DNA from: an uncultured Eubacteriales bacterium
GTDB taxonomy: Bacteria; Bacillota; Clostridia; Oscillospirales; Oscillospiraceae
Direction of reading: 5' to 3'
Assembly (NCBI GenBank): GCA_900316745.1
Contig: ONEB01000001.1
Location: 1-64,000 of the forward strand
DNA length: 64,000 nt
Shown: positions 18,992 through 63,638 of the stretch, piece after piece
Layout of the letters: every line of letters begins with the position of its first letter
How positions within the stretch are numbered: the stretch's first letter is position 1
The notes under the pieces: model-generated
What the model was told of the DNA's origin: nothing
The model's input: the letters and a program-made list of their open reading frames with translations, nothing else
Database searches by the model: none
Position numbers and translations under genes: made by a program

Positions 18992-19708
18992 ATGCTGTAT
19001 ACAACGTTGATGCTGATGATGAGCAGCGCCTTCCTGATGCTGCGGCTTGCGCCGGGGAGCAATTTTCCCCCGCCGCTGTCCGCCGACGAGGAGCGCGCGG
19101 CGGTCGAAGACTGGATGCGCGGCGACGAGCAGGCGCGCGACAAGCTGATTGCGCACAATCTGCGGCTCGTTGCCCACATCATCAAGAAATACTATGCGCG
19201 CGGCTGCGAGCCGGATGATCTGATCTCCATCGGCACGATCGGTCTGATCAAGGGCGTAAACACCTATCGACCGGACAAGAACGTGCGTCTTGCGACCTAC
19301 GCCAGCCGCTGCATTGAAAACGAAATCCTCATGCATTTTCGCGCCGAACGCAAACGCGCGGGCGACGTCTCGCTCTCTGACGCGCTGGACACAGACCCGG
19401 ACGGGAGCACGCTCTCATGGATGGATCTGCTCTCAGAGGACATGGAGCTCGACACGCGCATGGCGGAGCAGGACGCCGCGATGCGTCTGCACGAATGCAT
19501 CCGCAACGTCCTGACAGAGCGGGAGCGCACCGTGATCGCCATGCGCTATGCGCTCGACCGCGACGAGCCGCTGCCGCAGCGGGTCGTTGCTCAGCACTTC
19601 GGCATCAGCCGCAGCTATGTCTCCCGCATCGAAAAGCGGGCGCTGGAAAAGCTGCGCGCGGCGCTCGGAGATGAAAATGCGCACAGTTCACATCAAAATA
19701 ATCCTTAA
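18992..19708 (+). CDS. sigK: Sporulation sigma factor SigK
   Basis: Late mother-cell sigma factor controlling coat and germination genes. A hydrophobic N-terminal stretch (MLYTTLMLMMSSAFLML) matches the inhibitory pro-peptide of pro-sigma-K, then PPPLSADEE. Region 2 (DKLIAHNLRLVAHIIKKYYARGCEPDDLISIGTIGLIKGVNTY) and region 4 (LTERERTVIAMRYALD, FGISRSYVSRIEKRALEKL) are complete. Length 238. The gene is not split by a skin-type element. The start ATG has GGAGG 7 bases upstream. I found no convincing sigma-E promoter by eye. Confidence 0.93.
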   Translation: MLYTTLMLMMSSAFLMLRLAPGSNFPPPLSADEERAAVEDWMRGDEQARDKLIAHNLRLVAHIIKKYYARGCEPDDLISIGTIGLIKGVNTYRPDKNVRLATYASRCIENEILMHFRAERKRAGDVSLSDALDTDPDGSTLSWMDLLSEDMELDTRMAEQDAAMRLHECIRNVLTERERTVIAMRYALDRDEPLPQRVVAQHFGISRSYVSRIEKRALEKLRAALGDENAHSSHQNNP

Positions 19709-19724
19709 GACACGGCACTTGCGC

Positions 19725-19753
19725 TTGCGCGAAACGGTTTCTGTCGCTATAAT
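19725..19753 (+). promoter_or_regulatory. Promoter of the dicarboxylate transporter gene
   Basis: TTGCGC (19725-19730), 17-bp spacer, TATAAT (19748-19753). The predicted start, near 19760, lies upstream of the ATG at 19799 and rules out the longer frame from 19760. Confidence 0.7.
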
Positions 19754-19798
19754 ATACGATTGAGGAAAAGAAAAGTTCCCGCAGGAGTAGATAGAAAT

Positions 19799-21409
19799 AT
19801 GAAAACATACGAGATTGACCTGCACAACCTCGACGCCGTGAGCGACGCGATCCGCGAGGATCTGCTGCGCGAGCGGGCAACGCCCAAGGAGATTGCCCGG
19901 ACGCTGCTTCTGGTCGAAGAGATCACGATCAAATTCCGGATGTGCATGCCCGGCGCACAGGTGCGGGCACAGGTCGCGCGGCACTGGCGCACGCTGAGCG
20001 TGCGGCTCTTTGCCGAGGGCGACGACCGCAACCCCATTGCCGAGACCGAGGACTGGTCCGCCGGAACGGAGGACTATTACCGCACGCTGATTCTGCGCGC
20101 CAACAAGGCGCTGCTGAACTATCAGCACACGGACGGCAAAAACATCGTCACGATCCTGGTGCGCGCCTCGGAGAAGAAATACGCGCTGTATTCCGTGATC
20201 GGCATGCTCAGCGGCATCGTGCTGGGCGCGATCTTGCACTGGCTCGTGCCGAGCAGCGTTTCGCAATGGATCGACTGGAACATCTTCACCGTGTTTCAGT
20301 CCATCTACTTAAACGCGATCGCGCTGATGGCGGTTCCGGCAGTGTTCTGCTCCGTCGTGAACAGCATCACCAGCCTCTCCAGTCTCTCCGATACCGGCCG
20401 GATGGGCGGGCGCATCATGACGCTTTATACATTCACGACGCTGGCTGCCATCGCGGTGGGCTTTGCCCTTTCGATACCGGCGTTCCAGCACGGTGTCCTG
20501 CACCTCCAGGATCTCGGCAGCACCGGGCTTACGGAGATTGTAAGTCCCAGCTTCCGGGCGAAATTCCTCGATCTTGTGCCGGAAAATCTGATCGCTCCGA
20601 TGATGGACGGGGACATCCTGCAGGTCCTGCTGATCGCGGCGATCACCGGCGCGGCGATCGGCATGCTCGGCAACAAGGTCGAGCCGCTGCGCGTGCTGAT
20701 CGCGGCCTGTGACAGCCTGTTCCAGATGATCATCGCGATTGTGGCGCTGCTCGTGCCGTTTTTGACCTTTGTCTCCATGGCGTCTCTGATACTGCGCTAT
20801 GGCGTGATGACATTCCCGACTGTGTTTCTGCTGGGCGCAGTCGAGCTGGTCGGCTGCGGGATCATGTTTCTGCTGTACGCGCTGCTGGTGCGCACCGTCG
20901 GCGGCGTCAGCGCCCGCCCCTTTTTCCGCAAGGTCTGGAAATTTTTCAGCCACACCAATCCGCAGGCCAGCAGCGGCGAATATCTGCCGAAGGTCGTGGG
21001 GCTGTGCACCAATCAGCTCGGCGTGTCCGAGCGCGTGGCAAGCTTTTCCGCGGCGCTCGGCTCTGCCGTGAACATGGACGGCTCCGCCATCCATCTCGTT
21101 GTTTGCGGCGTGCTGATGGTGCGGCTGTTTGGCGGCGTACTGACGATCCAGATCATCATCCTGATCGCCTTTGTGGCGTTCGTCCTCTCGGCAGGCGCCT
21201 CGGCGGTGCAGAACTCCGGCATGGTCTCGGTGTCCTCGCTCGCGACCTCACTGGGCATTCCGCGCTCCGGAATCGGTCTGCTCTTCGGCGTGGATCAGAT
21301 CCTCGATCTGACGCGCACCGCCTCCAACGCCATCGGCGACGTCGCCGTATGCGTGATCATAGCGCATCAGGAAAACGAGCTGGATCTCACCGCTTATGCC
21401 GACGACTGA
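19799..21409 (+). CDS. Dicarboxylate/amino acid:cation symporter with extra N-terminal domain
   Basis: Residues about 122-536 form a DAACS (SLC1/GltP-like) secondary transporter: several hydrophobic helices, serine-rich SITSLSSLSDTGR, and NMDGSAIH followed by the QNSGMVSVSSLATSLGIP segment that builds the substrate site. Ahead of it are about 120 soluble residues that ordinary GltP proteins lack. Their order resembles an RsbW-type ATPase fold: RTLLLVEEITIKFRM in the N-box position, then RANKALLNYQHTDGKNIVTILV like the last strand, without the glycine-rich ATP lid. RBS GCAGGAG precedes ATG 19799. The gene converges on a partner-switching operon. Substrate cannot be read from sequence. Confidence 0.85.
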   Translation: MKTYEIDLHNLDAVSDAIREDLLRERATPKEIARTLLLVEEITIKFRMCMPGAQVRAQVARHWRTLSVRLFAEGDDRNPIAETEDWSAGTEDYYRTLILRANKALLNYQHTDGKNIVTILVRASEKKYALYSVIGMLSGIVLGAILHWLVPSSVSQWIDWNIFTVFQSIYLNAIALMAVPAVFCSVVNSITSLSSLSDTGRMGGRIMTLYTFTTLAAIAVGFALSIPAFQHGVLHLQDLGSTGLTEIVSPSFRAKFLDLVPENLIAPMMDGDILQVLLIAAITGAAIGMLGNKVEPLRVLIAACDSLFQMIIAIVALLVPFLTFVSMASLILRYGVMTFPTVFLLGAVELVGCGIMFLLYALLVRTVGGVSARPFFRKVWKFFSHTNPQASSGEYLPKVVGLCTNQLGVSERVASFSAALGSAVNMDGSAIHLVVCGVLMVRLFGGVLTIQIIILIAFVAFVLSAGASAVQNSGMVSVSSLATSLGIPRSGIGLLFGVDQILDLTRTASNAIGDVAVCVIIAHQENELDLTAYADD

Positions 21410-21420
21410 CGCGAGACGCA

Positions 21421-21465
21421 AAACGCCGTCTCCCCTGTGTTGGGGAGACGGCGTTTTTTATTTGT
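21421..21465. terminator. Bidirectional terminator
   Basis: AAAACGCCGTCTCCCC pairs with GGGGAGACGGCGTTTT around a 6-nt loop, with T runs on both strands. It separates the convergent transporter and phosphatase genes. Confidence 0.9.
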
Positions 21466-21468
21466 ATC

Positions 21469-23652
21469 TCAGATCTTCTTTCGGATCGTGAGCAGATTCT
21501 GCCCGTCGCGGTATTCGTAGAACATGTCGTCCATGGTCTTTTTCACCATGAAGATGCCCAGGCCGCCGATCTCACGGTCCTCAGCAGAGAGCAGCACATC
21601 GGGGTCCTCCCTTTTGAGCGGGTCATACGGGATGCCGCTGTCGGCAAATGTGATCTCCGCGACGCCGTCTTTCACATCGACGCCGATCACAGCGCTGCCG
21701 CTGCCCGGGGCATAGGCGTAGTTTGCGATGTTCACAAAGAGCTCCTCGACCGCGATGTCAATCTGCATCTGCGCTTTCATGGAGCAGCCCGCCGCCTCCA
21801 GCTCGGTGTCGATGAAGGACTGCACCTGCTGCAGGTTTTCTATTTTTGCGTCTACGGTAATCTTTTTCATCGTGTCCCCCAAATATCTCAGGCAGAGCAT
21901 CGTGATATCGTCAAACTGCGGCGCTTCGCCCACGAAAGCGTCGATCTCGCGCTTCACGGTTTCGAGCACCTCTTTCGGTGCGGCGTCTGCCGCCTGATTC
22001 AGACCGCGGAGCATGCGCTCCGTGCCGAACAGGGTGTATGCCGCGTCCGCGGCCTCGGTGACGCCGTCGGTATACAAAAACAGACTGTCGCCGCTTTTGA
22101 GCAGGATCTCATATTCCTGATAGCGCATGCCGTCCATGCCGCCGAGAACAACGCCGTGCCTGTCCTTGAACAGACGGAACGGGCCGCCCCTGCGCTGAAT
22201 GGCGGGGTATTCATGTCCGGCATTTGCGGCCTTGAGCCGTCCGGTGGAAAGCTCCAGAATGCCAAGCCACGCCGTGACAAACATCTCGGCCTTGTTGTTC
22301 ATGCAGATGTGATGGTTGACCGTCTCCAGGATCTGCGCCGGAGACGTGCGCTCGATGGTCGAGAAGTTGTTGATGAGGATCTTCGACGCCATCATGAACA
22401 GCGCCGCCGGGACGCCCTTGCCGGATACATCCGCCATGACAATGGCAAGATGATCGTCGTCGATCAGGAAGAAATCATAGAAGTCGCCGCCGACCTCCTT
22501 TGCCGTGTGCATCGTGGCATAAACGTCAAATTCCCTGCGCTCCGGGAAAGCCGGGAAGATGCTCGGCAGCATGCCTTCCTGGATCTGGCTCGCGATGCTG
22601 AGCTCCGTGCCGAGACGCTGTTTTTCAGCAGATATCGCTGAAATCTGTCCGAGATAATCATCGATCTCTTTGCTCAGGTTGACAACGTCGTCTGAGAGCT
22701 GACCGATCTCGTTGCGCGAACGGATGAGCGACAGGCTCTCTGTGATTTCTTTGCTGTCCTTTGTGATTTTGTACGTCCGGATGCCCTGCTGAACATGCTT
22801 CAGCGGCCGCAGCACATAGAAGTAGATCAGCAGCAGGCAGAACGCCGCGAGCAAAAGCTCGAGAATGACCGCATTGCCCGTTCCGATCCACGTCTGTGCC
22901 TGGACGTCGGCAAGAAGCCCGGACAGGTTGAACGTCAGGCCGATAAACGCCGCCTTCGTGTCGACATCTCCCAGATAGGCATAGTAATCCACATAATCTC
23001 CGGCTTCCGCCAGATGGGTCGAATGCTCCAGCGCCTGACGCATGGCGTCCTGCTGGCTCTGATTATCCGCAATGGACACGCTGGTGCCGAGCACATAGAC
23101 TTCCTCATAGTTCGTTCCGCGCACAGCGCCCTCATCCGCGGCGCTGAAGAGGAAGCACTGAGACTGATACGCCTCGTCCGCGACCACACAGAACAAATAA
23201 TCCACCTGGTATGCCCGCTTGATCTGATTCACGCGCGTGATCATCCAGGAATACACGATCTCGGCGCACAGCTTCTGGTCTTCCTCCGGCAGCGCCTCCA
23301 GCTCCTGTGCCTCGGCATATTTGAGCGAAAGCTCCGGATGATGACGGCGCACAAGCTGAAGCTTTTCTTCCGTTTTTGTGCCGGCGCTGTAATCCGTATC
23401 ATATTCCACGTCCAGCTCGTCGGCATGCCGGTACCAGTACCGGAGAAACCATTCGTGCGCCGGATACTCCCGAACCGACATGATGACCTCGTTTGCCGTT
23501 TCCTCGGCAAGAAGCTCCGTCTGGTTCCTGACATTGTCGATTGACTGGACTCGCAGCATGAAAAACGTAACGATGCCGATGATCAGAACGGCGATCAGGA
23601 AAAAGGCTGCCACCTGCCGCAGAATGCCGATTTCACGTTTTTTCTTTCCCAA
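21469..23652 (-). CDS. Membrane PP2C (SpoIIE/RsbU-type) phosphatase with C-terminal RsbW-like ATPase
   Basis: Order of domains: transmembrane helix (about 14-34), a long extracytoplasmic sensor region (about 35-265), a second helix (about 270-290), a HAMP-like linker, then a PP2C/SpoIIE phosphatase (AKEVGGDFYDFFLIDDDH, IVMADVSGKGVPAALFM, LFLYTDGVTEA, DDITMLCLRY). The last 130 residues are an HATPase of the anti-sigma type (AVEELFVNIANYAYA, ADSGIPYDPL, GGLGIFMVKKTMD, DGQNLLTI). One protein thus combines phosphatase and possible kinase. A TTG at 23652 with AGGTGAG is preferred; ATGs at 23679 and 23688 lack a good site. Last gene after STAS and STAS-kinase. Confidence 0.85.
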   Translation of the reverse strand: MGKKKREIGILRQVAAFFLIAVLIIGIVTFFMLRVQSIDNVRNQTELLAEETANEVIMSVREYPAHEWFLRYWYRHADELDVEYDTDYSAGTKTEEKLQLVRRHHPELSLKYAEAQELEALPEEDQKLCAEIVYSWMITRVNQIKRAYQVDYLFCVVADEAYQSQCFLFSAADEGAVRGTNYEEVYVLGTSVSIADNQSQQDAMRQALEHSTHLAEAGDYVDYYAYLGDVDTKAAFIGLTFNLSGLLADVQAQTWIGTGNAVILELLLAAFCLLLIYFYVLRPLKHVQQGIRTYKITKDSKEITESLSLIRSRNEIGQLSDDVVNLSKEIDDYLGQISAISAEKQRLGTELSIASQIQEGMLPSIFPAFPERREFDVYATMHTAKEVGGDFYDFFLIDDDHLAIVMADVSGKGVPAALFMMASKILINNFSTIERTSPAQILETVNHHICMNNKAEMFVTAWLGILELSTGRLKAANAGHEYPAIQRRGGPFRLFKDRHGVVLGGMDGMRYQEYEILLKSGDSLFLYTDGVTEAADAAYTLFGTERMLRGLNQAADAAPKEVLETVKREIDAFVGEAPQFDDITMLCLRYLGDTMKKITVDAKIENLQQVQSFIDTELEAAGCSMKAQMQIDIAVEELFVNIANYAYAPGSGSAVIGVDVKDGVAEITFADSGIPYDPLKREDPDVLLSAEDREIGGLGIFMVKKTMDDMFYEYRDGQNLLTIRKKI

Positions 23653-23698
23653 GAATGTCTCACCTGCTTTCCTGCGCATGCAGGGCATTCGCTCTGAT

Positions 23699-24868
23699 TC
23701 ACCAGGTCAGGGAATCTACCCGCTCAAGCAGCTCCAGGATCCGGCTGCGATAATGCGCGATCGCCTCTCTGCCCTCTTCCGTCTCCAGTCCTCTGCGGCG
23801 AATGGTGCGGCGCATCAGGCGCGTGTAGCCGATGAGCATTGCCTGCTCGGCGCGCGCGCGGAGGATCGCTTCGTCCTCGGTGCCGAAGTACAGGCGCAGT
23901 GTCTTGTCCCAGATGGCATTGCAGGTCTCTCTGCTGAAGCCCTGAAACGCCATGGCGACCGAGGGATCGAGCTCCGAAAAGCCGACGAAAGCGTTGAACA
24001 CCGACGCGAGTTCAAACACTGGGTGCCCGGTGCAGAGAGTGTCCATGTCGATGAGAATGACCTCGCCGTTCTGGAGCATGACATTTTTGGTGTGGTAATC
24101 GCCGTGCAGCATGGTAAGCTGCTCCGGCACGCCGGCGATCAGCGCGTGGAGCTTTTCCCATGCTTCACCGGGCAGGTAGTCCTTCAGAAAATCCGCCCAG
24201 TCCAGCGCGACCGCCTTCATCTCCGGCATGACGCCGGGCTTGACTGTCGTGCTGTGGATCAGTTTCATCAGGTCCACAAACTGAGCGACATAGCCGTCGA
24301 GCCCCTCGGGATCGGCAGCTATGAGCTTGGCAAAGCTCTTGGCGTTCAAAAGCTCAAATACCGAGCCGTAGCCGTCGCCAACGCGCACCACATCATAGGG
24401 GATGGCCGTGGGGATGCCCAGCACGAACGCCGTGCGCGCAAGCTCCCGCTCACGTTTGATGTCCGGGAGCGCGTCCGGATTATAATAGACCTTTACGATC
24501 GTATCTGGGTCGATGCGGTAGACCTTGCCGTTCGCGCCCTGTCCGATGACCTCGCAGCCCTCGACGGACACTTTGCGGTAGGCCTTGGAGATGGGCATCA
24601 TCTCGGTAAAGCCCGTCATCTCGAATACCTCATAGACCTCCAGGCAGACATTCACAATCTTCATATCGGAATGCTGTTTGCGCAGACGCAGCAGCACACG
24701 AAGTCCGGCGGAGGAGATATACTCCAGCGTCTCGGCGTCCACCGTAAGTGCGGCGTCGGTATATCCATCCAGCAGGGATGCGATCTCCTGCTCCGTTGCG
24801 GCGGCGTTGGCGGAGTCAATTCGCCCGGAGAGGGCGATGCAGTTTTCGCTTTTTTTCATGACAGACAT
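23699..24868 (-). CDS. STAS domain fused to an APH-like kinase
   Basis: Residues 1-100 are a STAS (anti-sigma-factor antagonist) domain with LEYISSAGLRVLLRLRKQHSDMKIVNV; Ser53 lies where SpoIIAA and RsbV are phosphorylated. Residues about 108-389 are an aminoglycoside-phosphotransferase-like kinase: GCEVIGQGANGKVYRID (phosphate loop), IVKVYY (ATP-binding Lys), MLHGDYHTKNVM (catalytic D257) and LIDMDT (metal D274). I recall a similar kinase half as TIGR02172. The ATG at 24868 has AGGAGG with 8-nt spacing. It sits between a lone STAS gene and the PP2C gene. Substrate unknown; the context suggests signalling rather than drug resistance. Confidence 0.85.
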   Translation of the reverse strand: MSVMKKSENCIALSGRIDSANAAATEQEIASLLDGYTDAALTVDAETLEYISSAGLRVLLRLRKQHSDMKIVNVCLEVYEVFEMTGFTEMMPISKAYRKVSVEGCEVIGQGANGKVYRIDPDTIVKVYYNPDALPDIKRERELARTAFVLGIPTAIPYDVVRVGDGYGSVFELLNAKSFAKLIAADPEGLDGYVAQFVDLMKLIHSTTVKPGVMPEMKAVALDWADFLKDYLPGEAWEKLHALIAGVPEQLTMLHGDYHTKNVMLQNGEVILIDMDTLCTGHPVFELASVFNAFVGFSELDPSVAMAFQGFSRETCNAIWDKTLRLYFGTEDEAILRARAEQAMLIGYTRLMRRTIRRRGLETEEGREAIAHYRSRILELLERVDSLTW

Positions 24869-24886
24869 GGTCAACGCCTCCTCAGA

Positions 24887-25186
24887 TTACTCGATGGTAA
24901 GAATGTCGCAGAAGCCCGTGATCGAGAAGATCTCCATAATCGTTTCATTCACGCCGATGAGCTTCATCGAACCCTGGCGGTTCATCGTTTTCTGCGTCGA
25001 GAGCAGTACGCGCAGGCCGGCGGAAGAGATGTACTCCAGACCGGACAGATCGAACACCAGCGCCTTCACTTCCGAGAGCTCATCGCGCAGTGCGCCCTCG
25101 AGCTCAGGCGCGGTGGTGGTATCGAGACGTCCCTCCAGCTTTACGGTAAGCGCATCGTCCCGGCGCTCTTTTACAATATTCAGCAT
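24887..25186 (-). CDS. STAS-domain anti-sigma factor antagonist
   Basis: A 99-residue single STAS domain (SpoIIAA/RsbV class): GRLDTTTAPELEGAL, VFDLSGLEYISSAGLRVLL with Ser55 as the likely phosphorylation site, and GVNETIMEIFSITGF. It shares ISSAGLRVLL with the next gene's STAS domain, and the two are probably duplicates. AGGAGG precedes the ATG. First gene of a three-gene operon with a promoter at 25231-25259. No sigma factor lies directly next to it. Confidence 0.9.
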   Translation of the reverse strand: MLNIVKERRDDALTVKLEGRLDTTTAPELEGALRDELSEVKALVFDLSGLEYISSAGLRVLLSTQKTMNRQGSMKLIGVNETIMEIFSITGFCDILTIE

Positions 25187-25230
25187 GTCCCGTTTCCTCC
25201 TTCAGACATTGTTTCGAGTCTAATAGCATT

Positions 25231-25259
25231 ATTTTATCAGATTATTCAGTCTGACGCAA
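25231..25259 (-). promoter_or_regulatory. Promoter of the STAS/kinase/phosphatase operon
   Basis: On the - strand TTGCGT (25254-25259), 17-bp spacer, TAAAAT (25231-25236). It resembles a sigma-A promoter. Confidence 0.6.
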
Positions 25260-25287
25260 CAAAACAGTGGTTGTTCCGTTTAAATTC

Positions 25288-27612
25288 TCAGTATCTCAGC
25301 TTCAGCACCAGACGCAGCACGTTCAGAGCCGTCCTCTGGAGCTCCGCGCGGGTGATCCCGTCGGGCTTTCCGAGCGTTTCGAGCAGCGTGGGGTCGGTCT
25401 TGTACTTCTTTGCCGTGCGGTCAAAGTCGCCGGGCATGAGCACATCCACCTGCGCGCGGACGCGGTAGGCATTGTTGCGCAGAGCGGGAAACTCCGGGCT
25501 TTTGGACTTCTGCATCCACCAGTCCGTGAGCGTGACGCCCTGAAAGCCCCACTCACGGCGCAGCACCGTGGTGGCGAGGTCATAGTGGTAATGCGACCAG
25601 ACGCCGTTGATTTTGTTATAGGACATCATCAGCGTCAGCGGCTTTGCCTCCTTGACGCAGATCTCGAAGTTTCGCAGGTAGATCTCGCGCAGCGCGCGCT
25701 CGGAAACGCGTGAATCGTTCACCTTGCGCTTGACCTCCTGGTTGTTGCAGGCGAAGTGCTTCGGGCAGGAGGCATGTCCCGTGCTCTGCACGCCGCGCAC
25801 CATCGCCGCGCCCATCTTGCCGGAGAGCAGCGGATCCTCGGAGAAATACTCGAAGTTGCGTCCGCAGAGCGGGTTGCGGTGGATATTCATGCCGGGGCCG
25901 AGGTGGATATCGACGCCGTAGTGCGTCATTTCCTCTCCCACCTTGGCATAAATCTCGCTGATGAGCGCAGTGTTCCAGGTGCATGCCATAGCCGTGCCGC
26001 AGGGCGCGAGCGAGGCATGGCGCGCAAGACGCAGACCGGCAGGACCGTCCGCCGTGATGAGCGCGGGCACGCCCTTGAACCGCAGAGACGGAACGATGCC
26101 CGCGATCGCCCCTGCGTTGCCGGACACGCCGAGGGAGCTGTTCATCATGCCGTGGCCGCGCGTGAGCGCCTCGAGCTCCTCGTCCGAGAGCATGCGCACA
26201 AAGTCCTCCGGCTCGCGCCGCCCCGCCGCGACCTCCCGCAGATGCAGGGCGCGGTGCTCCGTCCGGACCGGCTGCGGCAGCCGCGCGAGGATGCGCTCGC
26301 GCAGCGCGGCGCTGTCCAGACAGATATCCTCGCACTGCTCGACGAGCACTTCCGTCTCGTACGAGAGAACGCCTGCCTCCGTGTCGTTCACCTTAAAGAC
26401 ATATTCCCCGGCTTCCAGCACAAATGCGTGTTTCTGCTCGTCATACGAGGCATAGTCCTTGTCGAGGCATGTCAGACGCAGCGTTTCGGCTTCGCCCGGC
26501 GCAAGCGTCTTCGTCTTGCCGAACGCGACGAGGATGCGTTTGGCCTTTTCCATACGCCCGTCCGGCTGGCTGCACCAGAGCTGCACAACCTCCTTGCCCG
26601 CGCGATCTCCGGTGTTGCGCACCGTGACGGAGGCCTCCGCGCCATGCTTTGTGCGCAGGACGCCGGGCGTCGAAACATCAAAGGTCGTGTAGCTCAGGCC
26701 GAAGCCGAACGGATAGAGCACCTTTTCCGGCGCAAAGGTTTCAAAATGGCGGTAGCCGACGAAGATGCCCTCGGCATAGTCGTTGAACTCCTTGCCGCCG
26801 AAATTGGCGCTGCTGGGATAGTCCTCATAATGGCGCGCGATCGTATCGGCAAGCCTGCCGGAGGGGCTCACCGCGCCATAGAGCACATCGGCGACGCCGT
26901 TGCCGCTCTCCATGCCGCCGAGCCACGCGAAAAGGAGGGCGGAGAGCTTCTCGCCATAGTCCTCCGTCCACCGGAGATCGAACACGCTGCCCGCGTTCAG
27001 GATCACGACGGTGTGGTCAAACGCCTCCGTGACGGCGTCGAGCATGGCGCGCTCGGTGTCCGTGAGATAGTAGCTGCCGGGCGTAAGGGTGTTTTCCCGG
27101 TCCTCTCCCGCGGCGCGTCCGATGACGACCAGCGCCGTGTCCGCACCGCGGCGCGCAGCATGCACCATGGCGGGCGTGAGCGGCATTTCCGGGTGGCTCA
27201 TCGGCCAGTGGCCCCACCAGCCGTGATCCGCCTTGTGCTCCTTGGAGCTGCACCAGGCGCGATACGTCGTGGCAAGTGTTTTATCATAGGCGGCGCCTGC
27301 GTTTTTAAGGCCGTCGATAAGGTTTACATAATATGGAGCGTGCACGTCTCCCCCGCTGCCGTAGCCGACGTAGAACCAGTCGAGCTGGCAACGTCCGAAC
27401 ACGGCGACAGACTGCGCTTTATTCAGCGGGAGCGTGCCGTCGTTTTTCAGCAGGACGCAGCTCTCCGCCGCACCCTGCCGGATCAGGTTCCCGCTGCCGG
27501 GCGCACAGTAGAGTCTGCCGTCCGCGCTCGTCTCATCCTGCATGAGGCCGCTGCCCGTGACGCTGTCAATCACGCGCTGGGCGAGCTTGCCGATGGGTTT
27601 CGGAATTTTCAT
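25288..27612 (-). CDS. Glycoside hydrolase family 3 (beta-glucosidase type), permuted domain order
   Basis: A 774-residue cytoplasmic GH3 enzyme; no signal peptide. The usual C-terminal sandwich comes first (about 55-280; AAESCVLLKNDGTLPL, VVILNAGS, LFAWLGGMESGNGVADVLYG), then a fibronectin-like domain (TVRNTGDRAGKEVVQLW), and only then the TIM-barrel (440-760; ITADGPAGLRL, GPGMNIHRNPLCGRNFEYFSEDP, KHFACNNQE, VTLTDWW). D697 in TLTDWW is the predicted nucleophile. This reversed order is known in a subset of gut Firmicutes GH3 enzymes. Substrate cannot be told from sequence. The promoter overlaps the divergent csoR promoter. Confidence 0.92.
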   Translation of the reverse strand: MKIPKPIGKLAQRVIDSVTGSGLMQDETSADGRLYCAPGSGNLIRQGAAESCVLLKNDGTLPLNKAQSVAVFGRCQLDWFYVGYGSGGDVHAPYYVNLIDGLKNAGAAYDKTLATTYRAWCSSKEHKADHGWWGHWPMSHPEMPLTPAMVHAARRGADTALVVIGRAAGEDRENTLTPGSYYLTDTERAMLDAVTEAFDHTVVILNAGSVFDLRWTEDYGEKLSALLFAWLGGMESGNGVADVLYGAVSPSGRLADTIARHYEDYPSSANFGGKEFNDYAEGIFVGYRHFETFAPEKVLYPFGFGLSYTTFDVSTPGVLRTKHGAEASVTVRNTGDRAGKEVVQLWCSQPDGRMEKAKRILVAFGKTKTLAPGEAETLRLTCLDKDYASYDEQKHAFVLEAGEYVFKVNDTEAGVLSYETEVLVEQCEDICLDSAALRERILARLPQPVRTEHRALHLREVAAGRREPEDFVRMLSDEELEALTRGHGMMNSSLGVSGNAGAIAGIVPSLRFKGVPALITADGPAGLRLARHASLAPCGTAMACTWNTALISEIYAKVGEEMTHYGVDIHLGPGMNIHRNPLCGRNFEYFSEDPLLSGKMGAAMVRGVQSTGHASCPKHFACNNQEVKRKVNDSRVSERALREIYLRNFEICVKEAKPLTLMMSYNKINGVWSHYHYDLATTVLRREWGFQGVTLTDWWMQKSKSPEFPALRNNAYRVRAQVDVLMPGDFDRTAKKYKTDPTLLETLGKPDGITRAELQRTALNVLRLVLKLRY

Positions 27613-47477: not shown

Positions 47478-49586
47478 TTATTCCTTGTCCCAGTGCGCCC
47501 TGATGCGCGCATAGAGCTCGGGCGACTGCGCTTTCATGCGGTTTCTCAGCCGCTCGCGGCGATGGCGCAGGAGTCTTGCGGCAAGCGGATCGCGCTCTGA
47601 GAGGCGCTGCTCCACCAGATGGCGCTGCTGCTCCAGGCGCGCTTCCAGCGCGGCGAGCCGCTCATGGCGCAGCTCCCCTGCCTCCGCCAGCTGCTCCAGA
47701 CGCAGCTCGATGCGGTCGAGGAGCGTATCCTCGTCGAAGATCCCCGGGTGCGCAAAGCCCGCGTGCGCCTCGGCATCCGAGAGCGTGGCGCTTTCAATGG
47801 CGGCGAATTCCTCCGCGATGGAGCGCGCCATCTCGTCGAGCTTCCGATCCGCATCCGCACCGAATAGCCATTCAAACTCGGCAAACTGCTCGCTGCCCGT
47901 CTCATCCGAGGGGACATTGCAGTGGTGCAGCGGATAGGGCGGCTCCAGCCCCGCATCGCGCAGCGCAAGCTCCACGGTCTGCCGCACGCAGCCGCGGCGA
48001 ATGAGATCCCCGGCGCCGTACTGCCGGAGCTGATCATTCACCGCGCCGACGTGCTCCGTGAGATACAGCCGCACGCCGCGCTCGCGCAGGCGCTCTTCCA
48101 GCAGGCGGACGCGGTCGGCAGCGGTGATATCGATATTCGCGATGCCGCGCCCGTCCACGATGACCTGCTTCGTCTCGTCCGTGACGGCACACTCGATATC
48201 GTTTTCAAAGTCTCCGATGTTGGCGAAAAACAGGTTGCCGCTGAAGCGATAGAGCACCGTGCCCGCAATGGGGCACGCGCCGCGCGTGCGGCTCAGATCA
48301 TAAAAGCCCTCGTGTCCGGAGAGCGTGCCGAGCATGGCGCGCGGCGGCACGACGGCGCGCACGACCACGGCAAAGAAGCTCAGGAGTACGCCGACGATCA
48401 CGCCGCCCATCGTACCGAGCAAAAGCACGCCGAAAAACGCGGCTAGGAAGATGAAAAACTCGCGGCGGCTCGCCGTCCAGAGCCCGCGCGCCATTTTGAT
48501 CTCCAGAATGCCGATGAGCGCCGCAATGACGATGCCCGTGAGCACCGGCACCGGGAGATAGCGCAGCAGGGGCGTGCCGAACAGGAGCACCAGCACCATG
48601 ACAAGCGACGCCGTGACGCTCATGAGTTGACTCTTCACGCCGAACTGATCCGCCATGCCGGAGCGCGAGACGCTGCCGTTGACCGGGCAGCAGCCGACGA
48701 GCCCCGCCATGAGCTCCGCGCCGGCATAAGCCAGAAGCTCACGGCGCGTATCGATCTGATAGCGATAACGCAGGGCGTAATTATTGCTGGCAAGGAGCGT
48801 CTGCGCCATGACGACGAGCGCGATCGTGAGACTCGCGGTCGCGGCGTCCCCGGCTCTGCCCTGCAGGAGCGCAAGGCTCGGGATGCGCAGGGGCGGAAGT
48901 CCCCGCTCCACGGTCGGCAGCAGCGCCACGCCGAGGCGGTCCACATGAAACACCGCCGTTAGCACAACGCCCAGCGCGAGCAGCAGCGCCGCCATGGGAA
49001 ACCTCGGCGCAAAGCGCTTGGCGATCAGCATCAGCGCCACGGTCGCGGCGCCGAGCACGCACGACAGCGGATGGAACGCGCCCAGCTGCTCCGCGATGTT
49101 TACAAGCAGCGCCGGCAGCTCCCCGGTGCCGGGTGCGCCGCCGAAGAGCTTCGGCACCTGCATGAGGATAATCGTCGCGCCGACGCCGGAGATAAACCCG
49201 CCCATCACGGGCGAGGAGATGTACTTCACCACGCGGCCAGCTTTCACGAGCCAGAACAGCACGAACCACGCCGCCGTGCACATTGCAAGCACCGCCGCCA
49301 TCTCCATGGCGTCGGGCGTGCCGAGCGTGAGTCCCATGCCGGTGATTGCAGCGCCCGTCATGACGGCTGGCATGGCGTCCACGCCGACAACGAACTGCGG
49401 CGAGGATGTCAGCAGTCCGAACAGCAAAATCGGCAGCACCGAGCCATAGAGCCCATAGACCGGCGGCAATCCCGCGATCTGCGCATAGCCCATTGAGATC
49501 GGGATCGAGACCAGCGCCACGATTACGCCGGAGAGCATATCCGCTTTCCAATGTCGAAAAGAGATCTGCGGCAACACGCGCACCAC
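47478..49586 (-). CDS. SulP-family anion transporter with STAS domain and C-terminal extension
   Basis: About 12 membrane helices (residues 15-410) with SulP marks (GVIVALVSIPISMGYAQIAGLPPVYGLYGSVLP in parts, GCCPVNGSVSRSGM), then a cytoplasmic STAS domain (about 430-540; QVIVDGRGIANIDITAADRVRLLEE). Substrate may be sulfate, bicarbonate or another anion. About 150 further residues follow that SulP proteins usually lack: an acidic stretch and an Arg/Glu/Leu-rich predicted coiled coil (LDRIELRLEQLAEAGELRHERLAALEARL in parts). The start GTG at 49586 has no strong site. A Fur-box-like sequence overlaps the -10 region. Confidence 0.87.
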   Translation of the reverse strand: MVRVLPQISFRHWKADMLSGVIVALVSIPISMGYAQIAGLPPVYGLYGSVLPILLFGLLTSSPQFVVGVDAMPAVMTGAAITGMGLTLGTPDAMEMAAVLAMCTAAWFVLFWLVKAGRVVKYISSPVMGGFISGVGATIILMQVPKLFGGAPGTGELPALLVNIAEQLGAFHPLSCVLGAATVALMLIAKRFAPRFPMAALLLALGVVLTAVFHVDRLGVALLPTVERGLPPLRIPSLALLQGRAGDAATASLTIALVVMAQTLLASNNYALRYRYQIDTRRELLAYAGAELMAGLVGCCPVNGSVSRSGMADQFGVKSQLMSVTASLVMVLVLLFGTPLLRYLPVPVLTGIVIAALIGILEIKMARGLWTASRREFFIFLAAFFGVLLLGTMGGVIVGVLLSFFAVVVRAVVPPRAMLGTLSGHEGFYDLSRTRGACPIAGTVLYRFSGNLFFANIGDFENDIECAVTDETKQVIVDGRGIANIDITAADRVRLLEERLRERGVRLYLTEHVGAVNDQLRQYGAGDLIRRGCVRQTVELALRDAGLEPPYPLHHCNVPSDETGSEQFAEFEWLFGADADRKLDEMARSIAEEFAAIESATLSDAEAHAGFAHPGIFDEDTLLDRIELRLEQLAEAGELRHERLAALEARLEQQRHLVEQRLSERDPLAARLLRHRRERLRNRMKAQSPELYARIRAHWDKE

Positions 49587-61776: not shown

Positions 61777-61815
61777 AAAAGAGGTGTAAAGCGCTTTGCT
61801 TTACACCTCTTTTTT
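61777..61815. terminator. Bidirectional terminator between greA and the MATE gene
   Basis: AAAAAGAGGTGTAAAGC pairs with GCTTTACACCTCTTTTTT around a short loop. It overlaps the last codons of the MATE gene. Confidence 0.9.
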
Positions 61816-63165
61816 GGCCCACTGCCGCATGTAGCGGAAGATCACAGCAAATGAGATCCCGACCGTGATCACATCCGAGACGACCTGCGCCCAGACGAGA
61901 CCGTACATGCCGAAAACGGCATTGAACAGATACAGCATCGGGATGTTCAGCACCGCCCAGCGGATAATCGCAAGCGCCGTGGAGCGCCTGCCGTCGCCGA
62001 AGCCCTGAAACAGGAACACGGCGAAAAAGCAGAAGAACATGATCGCCGCCGCGAGCGCGCGCACGCGCAGGAAGCCCGTACCGATCATAAGGGTCTCAGC
62101 GTCCGCAATAAACAGGCGCACGATCTGGTGCGTGAAGAGCTCATACACCGAAATGCTCACAAGTGCGACCGTGACGCCGATCTTCAGCACGTATGCCATG
62201 ATCTCCCTTATGCGCTCCCGGTCATGCAGCGCGTAGCTGTATGCCACGAGCGGCACCATGCCCTGGCACAGACCGATGCCGATCTGCTGCGGGAAGCGCT
62301 CGGCTTTCAGGACGATGCCGATCGCGGCGAGCGCCGCCTCGCCATATCCCGCGACGAGCTTATCCAGCACCATGTAGTCAATATCGAACAGGAGCGTCCC
62401 CAGCGTGCCGGGAACGCCGACCGTGAACACGGCGGCGATGCTCTCCCGTCTCGGCGCGGGCGCGAAAAAGCGCGGCGTGATCTCCCTCTGCCGCCGCAGG
62501 AACACGGCGAGACAATAGACACAGGCGATTACGTTGGAGATGAGCGTCGCGATGCCGACGCCGAGCACCTCGCTCCCTTTCGGCAGCAGCACGAACATGA
62601 AGAGCGGATCGAGCCCGATGTTCAGCGCGCCGCCGAGCGCCACGCCGACGCCCGCCTCGCGCGAAAGGCCGAGACTGCGCAGGAGATTGGACAGCACATT
62701 GGAAAAGATCGTCGGCACGCCGCCGAGCACCAGCACCATCCGCACATAGGTGCTCGCGTGCGAGAGGGTATTCTCGCTCGCGCCGAGCAGCAGCAGGATC
62801 GGCCGCATGAAGATCAGAAGCCCCGCCGAAAACAAAAGTGCCACCGCCACGGAAAACCGCAGGCAGTACGCCGCCGCGCGCGACGCCTCCTCCCGGTCGC
62901 CCATTGCCAGAAGCTTCGGCAGCAGCGCGCCGCCGCCGATGCCGAACAGGCCGCCGAGACACAGCGTGAGATTGAACACCGGCAGAATGAGCGACACGCC
63001 CGCCACCATATAGGGGCTGTTCGTCTGCCCGATGAAATAGGTATCCGCAAGGTTATAGATGAGCACGATGAGCTGGCTCACCACGGCGGGCACCGCCATG
63101 GTCCGAACGGCCTGCGGCACGGTCATCTCTCTGAAGATCTCCTCGCTCGTGCGCTGTCTGGCCAT
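61801..63165 (-). CDS. MATE-family efflux transporter
   Basis: A 454-residue, 12-helix multidrug/toxin extrusion protein. N-terminal MTVPQAVRTMAVPAVVSQLIVLIYNLADTYFIGQ in parts and the repeated P-x-x-x-S pattern typical of NorM/DinF-type carriers; GLDPLFMFVLLPKG and FNAVFGMYGLVWAQ are family marks. Drug or metabolite unknown. ATG 63165 has GGGGGAG 7 bases away; the longer frame to 63264 lacks a site. Confidence 0.92.
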   Translation of the reverse strand: MARQRTSEEIFREMTVPQAVRTMAVPAVVSQLIVLIYNLADTYFIGQTNSPYMVAGVSLILPVFNLTLCLGGLFGIGGGALLPKLLAMGDREEASRAAAYCLRFSVAVALLFSAGLLIFMRPILLLLGASENTLSHASTYVRMVLVLGGVPTIFSNVLSNLLRSLGLSREAGVGVALGGALNIGLDPLFMFVLLPKGSEVLGVGIATLISNVIACVYCLAVFLRRQREITPRFFAPAPRRESIAAVFTVGVPGTLGTLLFDIDYMVLDKLVAGYGEAALAAIGIVLKAERFPQQIGIGLCQGMVPLVAYSYALHDRERIREIMAYVLKIGVTVALVSISVYELFTHQIVRLFIADAETLMIGTGFLRVRALAAAIMFFCFFAVFLFQGFGDGRRSTALAIIRWAVLNIPMLYLFNAVFGMYGLVWAQVVSDVITVGISFAVIFRYMRQWAKKEV

Positions 63166-63224
63166 GGCGCTCTCCCCCCTTTTGGCAGCTTTTATGATGT
63201 GATGATAGCACGAACGCGCGGGAT

Positions 63225-63253
63225 TTGCAACGGCGCGGAATGTGTAGTATACT
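63225..63253 (+). promoter_or_regulatory. Promoter of the 118-residue protein gene
   Basis: TTGCAA (63225-63230), 17-bp spacer, TATACT (63248-63253). Confidence 0.6.
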
Positions 63254-63281
63254 ACGGTCAGCACACGCAGGAGGGATGACG

Positions 63282-63638
63282 ATGAAAGACGCTCCGTTCA
63301 CAACGCCGCCGATCGTGGCAAAGCAAGCGGATTCCGGCGCGCTCCGGCGCATGCTGTTCGGGCACGCCGCCTCGGACGCCTATTACGAGGCGCTCGACGC
63401 CGCGGGGCGCTATCTGCTCTGGATGGAATTTTCCCGCTTCGGCTCCGTACGCGCCTATCCCTGCGTAATGACCGACGGCGACGAAACGCTGGTCTATCGC
63501 CCCTACGGAGACGGCAACGACGTGCTTTTAGAGCGCTGGCAGGCGGTTGTGACCGAGGACGCCGTACACAAGCTGCAGATCACGGAGCTCACGAAAGCGG
63601 ACTTTAAGAGGATCTATCAAAGCTATCGAGAGGCATGA
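63282..63638 (+). CDS. Small protein of unknown function (118 residues)
   Basis: Not recognised. A soluble, mixed-charge protein with many aromatic residues (SDAYYEALDAAGRYLLWMEFSRF, YRPYGDGNDVLLERW). The last 30 residues (VHKLQITELTKADFKRIYQSYREA in part) look helical. ATG 63282 is 7 bases after GGAGG; ATG 63276 is too close to it. Own promoter and terminator, so it is expressed alone. Confidence 0.75.
   Translation: MKDAPFTTPPIVAKQADSGALRRMLFGHAASDAYYEALDAAGRYLLWMEFSRFGSVRAYPCVMTDGDETLVYRPYGDGNDVLLERWQAVVTEDAVHKLQITELTKADFKRIYQSYREA

Follow-up and report, generated by a model that had tools for sequence, protein, structure and literature searches.

A probable non-sigma partner switch built around a STAS-kinase fusion in gut Clostridia

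The operon and its main interpretation

We analysed a 64,000-nucleotide stretch of DNA from an uncultured Eubacteriales bacterium of the Oscillospiraceae (assembly GCA_900316745.1, contig ONEB01000001.1, positions 1 to 64,000; hereafter the window). It holds a minus-strand operon of three tightly packed genes, which encode a lone STAS protein, a STAS domain fused to an aminoglycoside-phosphotransferase (APH)-like kinase (STAS-APH), and a membrane sensor carrying a SpoIIE-type PP2C phosphatase and an RsbW-type HATPase (PP2C-HATPase). Partner switching is known chiefly as a textbook form of sigma-factor control. From domain content and gene linkage, we consider it likely that the present genes form a partner switch that includes STAS-APH and does not act through a sigma factor. 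Our best explanation as a whole, which we regard as probable, is that its outputs are likewise probably non-transcriptional, namely a kinase of metabolites, joined in some genomes by a transporter. The switch thus described appears real, conserved and probably non-sigma, with two unusual features: the STAS-APH kinase and RsbW-like domains borne by transporters.

The features of the operon region are as follows.

24887..25186, minus strand: lone STAS protein, RsbV/SpoIIAA-like, 99 amino acids, phosphoacceptor Ser55 in ISSAGL
23699..24868, minus strand: STAS-APH fusion (ATG start, 389 amino acids; alternative TTG start at 24874, 391 amino acids)
21469..23688, minus strand: membrane sensor, SpoIIE-type PP2C (21883-22461) and RsbW-type HATPase (21478-21849)
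25259-25231, minus strand: weak promoter-like TTGCGT-17-TAAAAT upstream of the operon
21420..21457, no strand assigned: strong stem-loop of 16 pairs between convergent genes

A sequence-only reading of this region had described the three co-directional genes in these terms, and both the coordinates and the Pfam matches bear it out. The lone STAS protein matches PF01740 (67.5 bits) and TIGR00377 (75.7 bits), and the PP2C-HATPase protein matches SpoIIE (163.6 bits) and HATPase_c_2 (71.5 bits), all above cut-off. In STAS-APH, the STAS domain (41.8 bits, likewise above cut-off) covers approximately residues 5-96 and the APH-fold kinase approximately residues 97-385, the latter scoring 64.0 bits against the PF01636 cut-off of 23.2 and thus belonging to the APH family. 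The ATG at 24868 is better positioned behind GGAGG than the TTG at 24874; numbered from this ATG, D257 is the HGD aspartate and D274 the first aspartate of IDMD, and these catalytic residues are intact, as are Ser53 and Ser55, all of which had been singled out earlier. Ser53 of STAS-APH and Ser55 of the lone STAS protein are the second serine of ISSAGL, and presumably align with Ser58 of SpoIIAA. The start of the PP2C-HATPase gene is uncertain, the ATG at 23688 having no clear ribosome site and the TTG at 23652 having one.

The gap between the STAS and STAS-APH genes is 12 bases (18 with the ATG start), and that between the STAS-APH and PP2C-HATPase genes is 10 bases. A single promoter for all three genes, as proposed earlier, is plausible given the element upstream, although this element is weak and falls below the threshold of the promoter scan. 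At the other end, the stem-loop has a T tail on the plus strand, and the AAAA at the start of its stem reads TTTT on the minus strand; it is probably a bidirectional terminator.

Distribution and conservation of STAS-APH

Relatives were collected from one-genome-per-species contigs as DNA stretches that matched any of six short STAS-APH peptide patterns and were then confirmed by tblastn. This gave 480 stretches encoding a STAS-APH relative, and the best 80 were retained as an 80-locus set, which is biased to close relatives. The closest relative, 74% identical, comes from a metagenome-assembled genome (MAG) of an Oscillospiraceae bacterium from goat ileum. In whole-genome samples, each including the window's genome, matches were found in 2/398 genomes for the phylum (E up to 1e-60), and in 34/295 for the order and 32/200 for the family (E up to 1e-40). 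STAS-APH is thus found repeatedly among gut Clostridia, with a patchy distribution; two genomes of the same genus in the family sample had no match. Some genomes hold paralogues: five matches were found in one (G846, contigs C59, C1 and C69) and a tandem pair in another (G674, contig C11, locus L168).

Conservation was scored on alignment rows from the 80-locus set, in which the window sequence is counted twice for STAS-APH and for lone STAS. Both serines of ISSAGL are kept in 82/83 STAS-APH rows and in 57/58 lone STAS rows, the remaining row being gapped each time. The APH glycines, lysine, HGDxxxxN and IDxD are likewise kept in 82/83 STAS-APH rows, with one gapped row, and each PP2C catalytic aspartate in 44 to 46 of 46 rows, the exceptions being one Asn and otherwise gaps. 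The canonical HATPase motifs (N-box Glu and Asn, G1 Asp and GGxG) are intact in all rows, whether the domain is fused to PP2C (30/30), alone (21/21) or fused to APH (22/22); here the window sequence was added to each of the three sets as reference. Judged by these motifs, the sequence hallmarks of a partner-switching system are all present: a STAS phosphoserine site, an RsbW-type HATPase and a SpoIIE-type PP2C.

Linkage of the switch genes in relatives

To describe gene linkage we mainly used a 61-locus set, consisting of 60 loci fetched from the order and family samples plus the window, which is fairer than the 80-locus set. It covers 61/63 matched genomes, excluding two fragments (G814 and G850) and additional copies found in G846 and G612. 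Some genomes occur in both sets, whose counts are not additive. Genes in relatives were called by domain, as the length of an open reading frame is misleading owing to long antisense frames in GC-rich DNA; intergenic gaps were taken from stop-to-stop open frames, which overstates overlaps.

The sequence-only reading had named a lack of conserved linkage in related genomes as one thing that would refute it, and the neighbourhood survey found such linkage: where both 6-kb flanks are complete, a co-directional partner was seen in 30/36 loci (STAS in 28, PP2C in 22). Within 6 kb of STAS-APH, 45/61 loci have a STAS, PP2C or separate HATPase gene on the same strand, and a co-directional partner lies within the available flanks in 65/80 loci of the larger set. 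By way of background, SpoIIE-type PP2C genes number 1 to 6 per genome (mean 3.1 in about 2 Mb; 30 genomes including the window's, linked genes counted), from which we estimate a chance expectation of about 2% for a PP2C gene in such a stretch. Together with the Pfam domains, this linkage supports the earlier proposal of a partner-switching module around STAS-APH. What weighs against it is that 14/61 loci (5/36 of those with full flanks) lack any switch partner in the 6 kb around STAS-APH, also when fused HATPase domains are counted.

A chance neighbourhood or an assembly artefact was rejected as the origin of this arrangement: genes of the same kinds lie together in numerous MAG records and also in Erysipelotrichaceae bacterium NK3D112 (locus L079), whose record is titled neither MAG nor uncultured. 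A mobile or phage origin was rejected too. Positions 19700-25300 gave no megablast match in 72,556 plasmid records, and STAS-APH gave no tblastn match in 50,697 phage records.

The position of the HATPase differs between loci. It is fused to STAS-APH in 28/61 loci, and a canonical HATPase accompanies STAS-APH in 42/61 (28 fused, 11 on PP2C and 3 lone); a STAS kinase is therefore usually at hand. Among loci that have a PP2C gene, PP2C-borne HATPase domains were found in 0/19 loci with the triple fusion (STAS-APH-HATPase) as against 11/13 without it, and in the 80-locus set in 0/12 as against 29/33. Since one HATPase domain moved between the two proteins, a direct link between the phosphatase and STAS-APH is suggested. 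It should be noted that the tree requires a single change to account for the HATPase on PP2C and five to account for it on STAS-APH; the exclusive placement is essentially one event on the tree, and common ancestry accounts for much of it. An independent-pairs test of the placement yielded just 2 pairs, which are too few.

Other genes recur at these loci. In five of them (L020, L024, L039, L044 and L075), three genes stand in constant order between STAS and PP2C-HATPase: one formyltransferase-like, one phosphatidylglycerol lysyltransferase-C-like and one MATE-type with an HATPase-like tail (Pfam was run on L020 only). A gene for a DUF218 membrane protein (L016, L017, L022, L030 and others; assigned by Pfam on L016 only) lies downstream of STAS-APH in 11/80 loci and is present in 13/61.

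The APH part as a probable small-molecule kinase

The sequence-only reading had offered two roles for the APH part: phosphorylation of the STAS serines, or a small-molecule kinase under STAS control. The second fits better, because a canonical HATPase is present in 42/61 loci, because the APH part resembles small-molecule kinases in fold, and because a hydrolase gene adjoins the kinase gene in 38/61 loci. Nearly all fold neighbours listed are kinases of this kind, with APH(3')-Ia as the top Foldseek match; these rows span mostly residues 96-385, and the STAS part was judged by Pfam. The hydrolases, of a kind that acts on nucleotides, are of the HD_4 (14 loci) or PHP (24 loci) type, never both, and the window has neither; the ED motif is missing from 1/10 HD_4 rows. 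We consider a small-molecule substrate for the APH part reasonably probable on this evidence.

In the competing role, the APH domain would itself phosphorylate the STAS serines, either in cis or on the lone protein, and the switch would contain a second kinase fold; the five full-flank loci without partners would suit this. Such a role is unlikely in our view: the HATPase that would serve as STAS kinase is commonly present and in 28/61 loci is even part of the same protein, the closest matches in fold are kinases of small molecules, and the HD_4 or PHP genes beside the kinase gene suggest a small phosphorylated product.

The top match to APH(3')-Ia and the MATE transporters in related loci could also point to a loose stress- or antibiotic-tolerance island, in which the APH enzyme inactivates a drug and its fusion to STAS is incidental. 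This we hold to be very improbable, as the resistance-enzyme models score far below their cut-offs (APH(6), 18.0 against 325 bits; APH(3')-I, 15.9 against 400 bits), which places the kinase in neither family, the STAS phosphosites are invariant in all ungapped rows, and the plasmid and phage searches were negative. Among NCBIfam models, that of the APH-like family TIGR02172 matches the kinase part best, and membership in this family was rejected at 105.6 bits against a cut-off of 228.2; this cut-off was reached in 0/199 phylum genomes.

A convergent symporter with a degenerate RsbW-like domain

Next to the operon, and convergent with it, lies a transporter gene, preceded by a sigma-factor gene:

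19760..21409, plus strand: sodium:dicarboxylate-family (SDF) symporter (PF00375, 220.9 bits), convergent with the operon
19799..20215, plus strand: degenerate N-terminal domain of the symporter, of predicted RsbW/SpoIIAB fold
18992..19708, plus strand: SigK-type sporulation sigma factor (NF004471, 255.5 bits, cut-off 252; TIGR02846, 246 bits, cut-off 298.65)

The sequence-only reading had left the output of the switch open, and this transporter, which it did not include, narrows the question. The predicted fold of the symporter's N-terminal domain resembles UsfX, RsbW and SpoIIAB, and would thus be an RsbW/SpoIIAB fold. By eye, the domain has Lys at the N-box Asn position and lacks the G1 Asp and the GG motif, in the window as well as in relatives, so that the motifs for ATP binding and kinase activity are missing; Pfam HATPase_c_2 found no match in the symporter at E 0.1. 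Of the similar domains fused to MATE transporters, the two that were scanned pass HATPase_c_2, with 38.1 and 45.6 against 27.4 bits.

The profile sHATP was built from 8 relatives and leaves out the window sequence. Symporters with an RsbW-like N-terminal domain have switch genes nearby in 6/13 loci (13 regions holding 14 rows, besides the window's, that resemble a symporter or part of one; two of these regions, L214 and L219, being contigs of 4.1 and 3.1 kb). For MATE transporters with a similar domain, the count is 23/30 (31 rows resembling fused transporters or parts of them fetched, 30 anchored, L238 having no anchor; switch genes counted on both strands). An SDF family member lies inside the operon itself in L007, the nearest relative. 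The window's own genome has a second symporter with such a domain (L224, contig C21:67366-67767), around which no switch gene was detected in 19 kb, and on the MATE transporter at 61804-63297 (minus strand) of the window the HATPase profiles detected no tail.

By analogy of fold, and from gene linkage, the symporter's N-terminal domain may be a binding site for STAS. Whether the transporter is a client of the switch in this window is close to an even call, which we would place slightly on the doubtful side.

Sigma factors near the operon

It had also been claimed that no sigma factor is adjacent. This holds for sigma factors of the SigB or SigF type, none of which turned up in the scan of six genes at 18992-27612, but not for the SigK-type gene, which lies just upstream of the symporter gene and 1.8 kb beyond the operon. 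This gene is probably not part of the switch; SigK as sigma client was considered and judged unlikely.

More generally, a conventional sigma/anti-sigma output could be encoded elsewhere, through SpoIIAB/SigF or the nearby SigK, with STAS-APH as an accessory. The window's genome does have a SpoIIAA/AB-like pair, in which the genome's one other RsbW-type HATPase that scores well above the family cut-off lies beside a STAS gene on contig C30, and the SigK-type gene is not far off. We nevertheless regard such an output as quite improbable: a SigB/SigF-type gene is missing from the scanned genes, SigK is not known as a client of partner switches, and the recurrent neighbours that were annotated are enzymes and transporters.

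Comparison with known partner switches

The system shares with RsbU/RsbV/RsbW and SpoIIE/SpoIIAA/SpoIIAB a phosphoserine STAS protein, an RsbW-type HATPase and a SpoIIE-type PP2C, all with intact motifs. It differs in that PP2C and HATPase form one polypeptide, in that an additional STAS domain is fused to an APH kinase, and in that a transporter with a pseudo-RsbW domain, rather than a SigB/SigF-type client, is seen alongside. A phosphatase and an RsbW-type kinase are reportedly also combined in one protein in HsbR/HsbA, again with a STAS partner. The same holds for SypE of Vibrio fischeri (SypE/SypA), described as a dual kinase/phosphatase for a STAS partner (PMC8256260), and for Rv1364c, whose structure entry names RsbU and RsbW domains (3ke6). 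Unlike these three, the present system has a membrane sensor in this place and carries its second STAS domain on an enzyme.

For direct control of an enzyme there is a precedent, since in SiaABCD of Pseudomonas aeruginosa the STAS-like protein SiaC acts directly on the diguanylate cyclase SiaD (PMC8457831). In both systems an enzyme would be the direct target of a STAS-like component in a pathway of phosphatase and kinase; SiaD is bound in trans, whereas the APH-fold kinase is fused. The PP2C-HATPase protein is not a SiaA, matching NF038263 over residues 272-601 with 66.3 bits against a cut-off of 700. In the review PMC8256260, SulP/SLC26 transporters with a STAS tail link STAS biology to transport, and the outputs of the non-sigma partner switches covered in its section 6 are unknown targets or secretion and post-transcriptional control. 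In SulP/SLC26 proteins the transporter bears the STAS domain, whereas the SDF and MATE transporters described here bear an RsbW-like domain as the presumed STAS-binding side. The window also holds a STAS domain at 47970-48263 (minus strand) within an open frame of 727 amino acids, probably the tail of a SulP-type transporter. Searches of open-licence PubMed Central papers, a collection outside which most subscription journals and preprints lie, showed no description of a STAS-APH or transporter-RsbW fusion, which is weak evidence of absence.

Proposed mechanism

In SpoIIAA/AB and RsbVW, a kinase and a phosphatase set the phosphorylation of the STAS protein, which decides its partner. By the same logic, the outer part of the PP2C-HATPase protein would read an extracellular signal, and this signal would set how HATPase (kinase) and PP2C (phosphatase) activities on the STAS serines are balanced. 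The fused STAS domain might then gate the APH kinase according to its phosphorylation state, by docking to the HATPase or being released from it. A small metabolite, probably nucleotide-like or sugar-like, would be the substrate of the APH part, and its phosphate would be removed again in relatives by the HD or PHP hydrolase encoded alongside. The lone STAS protein may also switch transport by binding a transporter's pseudo-RsbW domain, on an SDF protein here and on a MATE protein in relatives; the degenerate domain would be able to bind STAS but presumably not to phosphorylate it. If this is correct, partner-switch logic would extend to metabolism and transport, controlled post-translationally, in gut bacteria that are common and little studied, and families annotated merely as STAS, APH or HATPase proteins would gain a testable function.

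A bolder version, which we put forward tentatively and think rather unlikely as it stands, would see here a gut-Clostridia class of partner switches acting directly on membrane transport and metabolite phosphorylation. SDF transporters at the N-terminus and MATE transporters at the C-terminus would each have gained a degenerate RsbW domain as a docking site for STAS, and STAS-APH would make a phosphorylated nucleotide-like signal or metabolite that a SpoT-like HD or a PHP hydrolase erases. An extracellular cue could in that case set both transport and a small-molecule pool without a transcription step.

Another gene in the vicinity

A GH3-family glycosidase gene at 25288-27612 (minus strand) has a reversed domain order, the C-terminal domain family preceding the N-terminal domain family.

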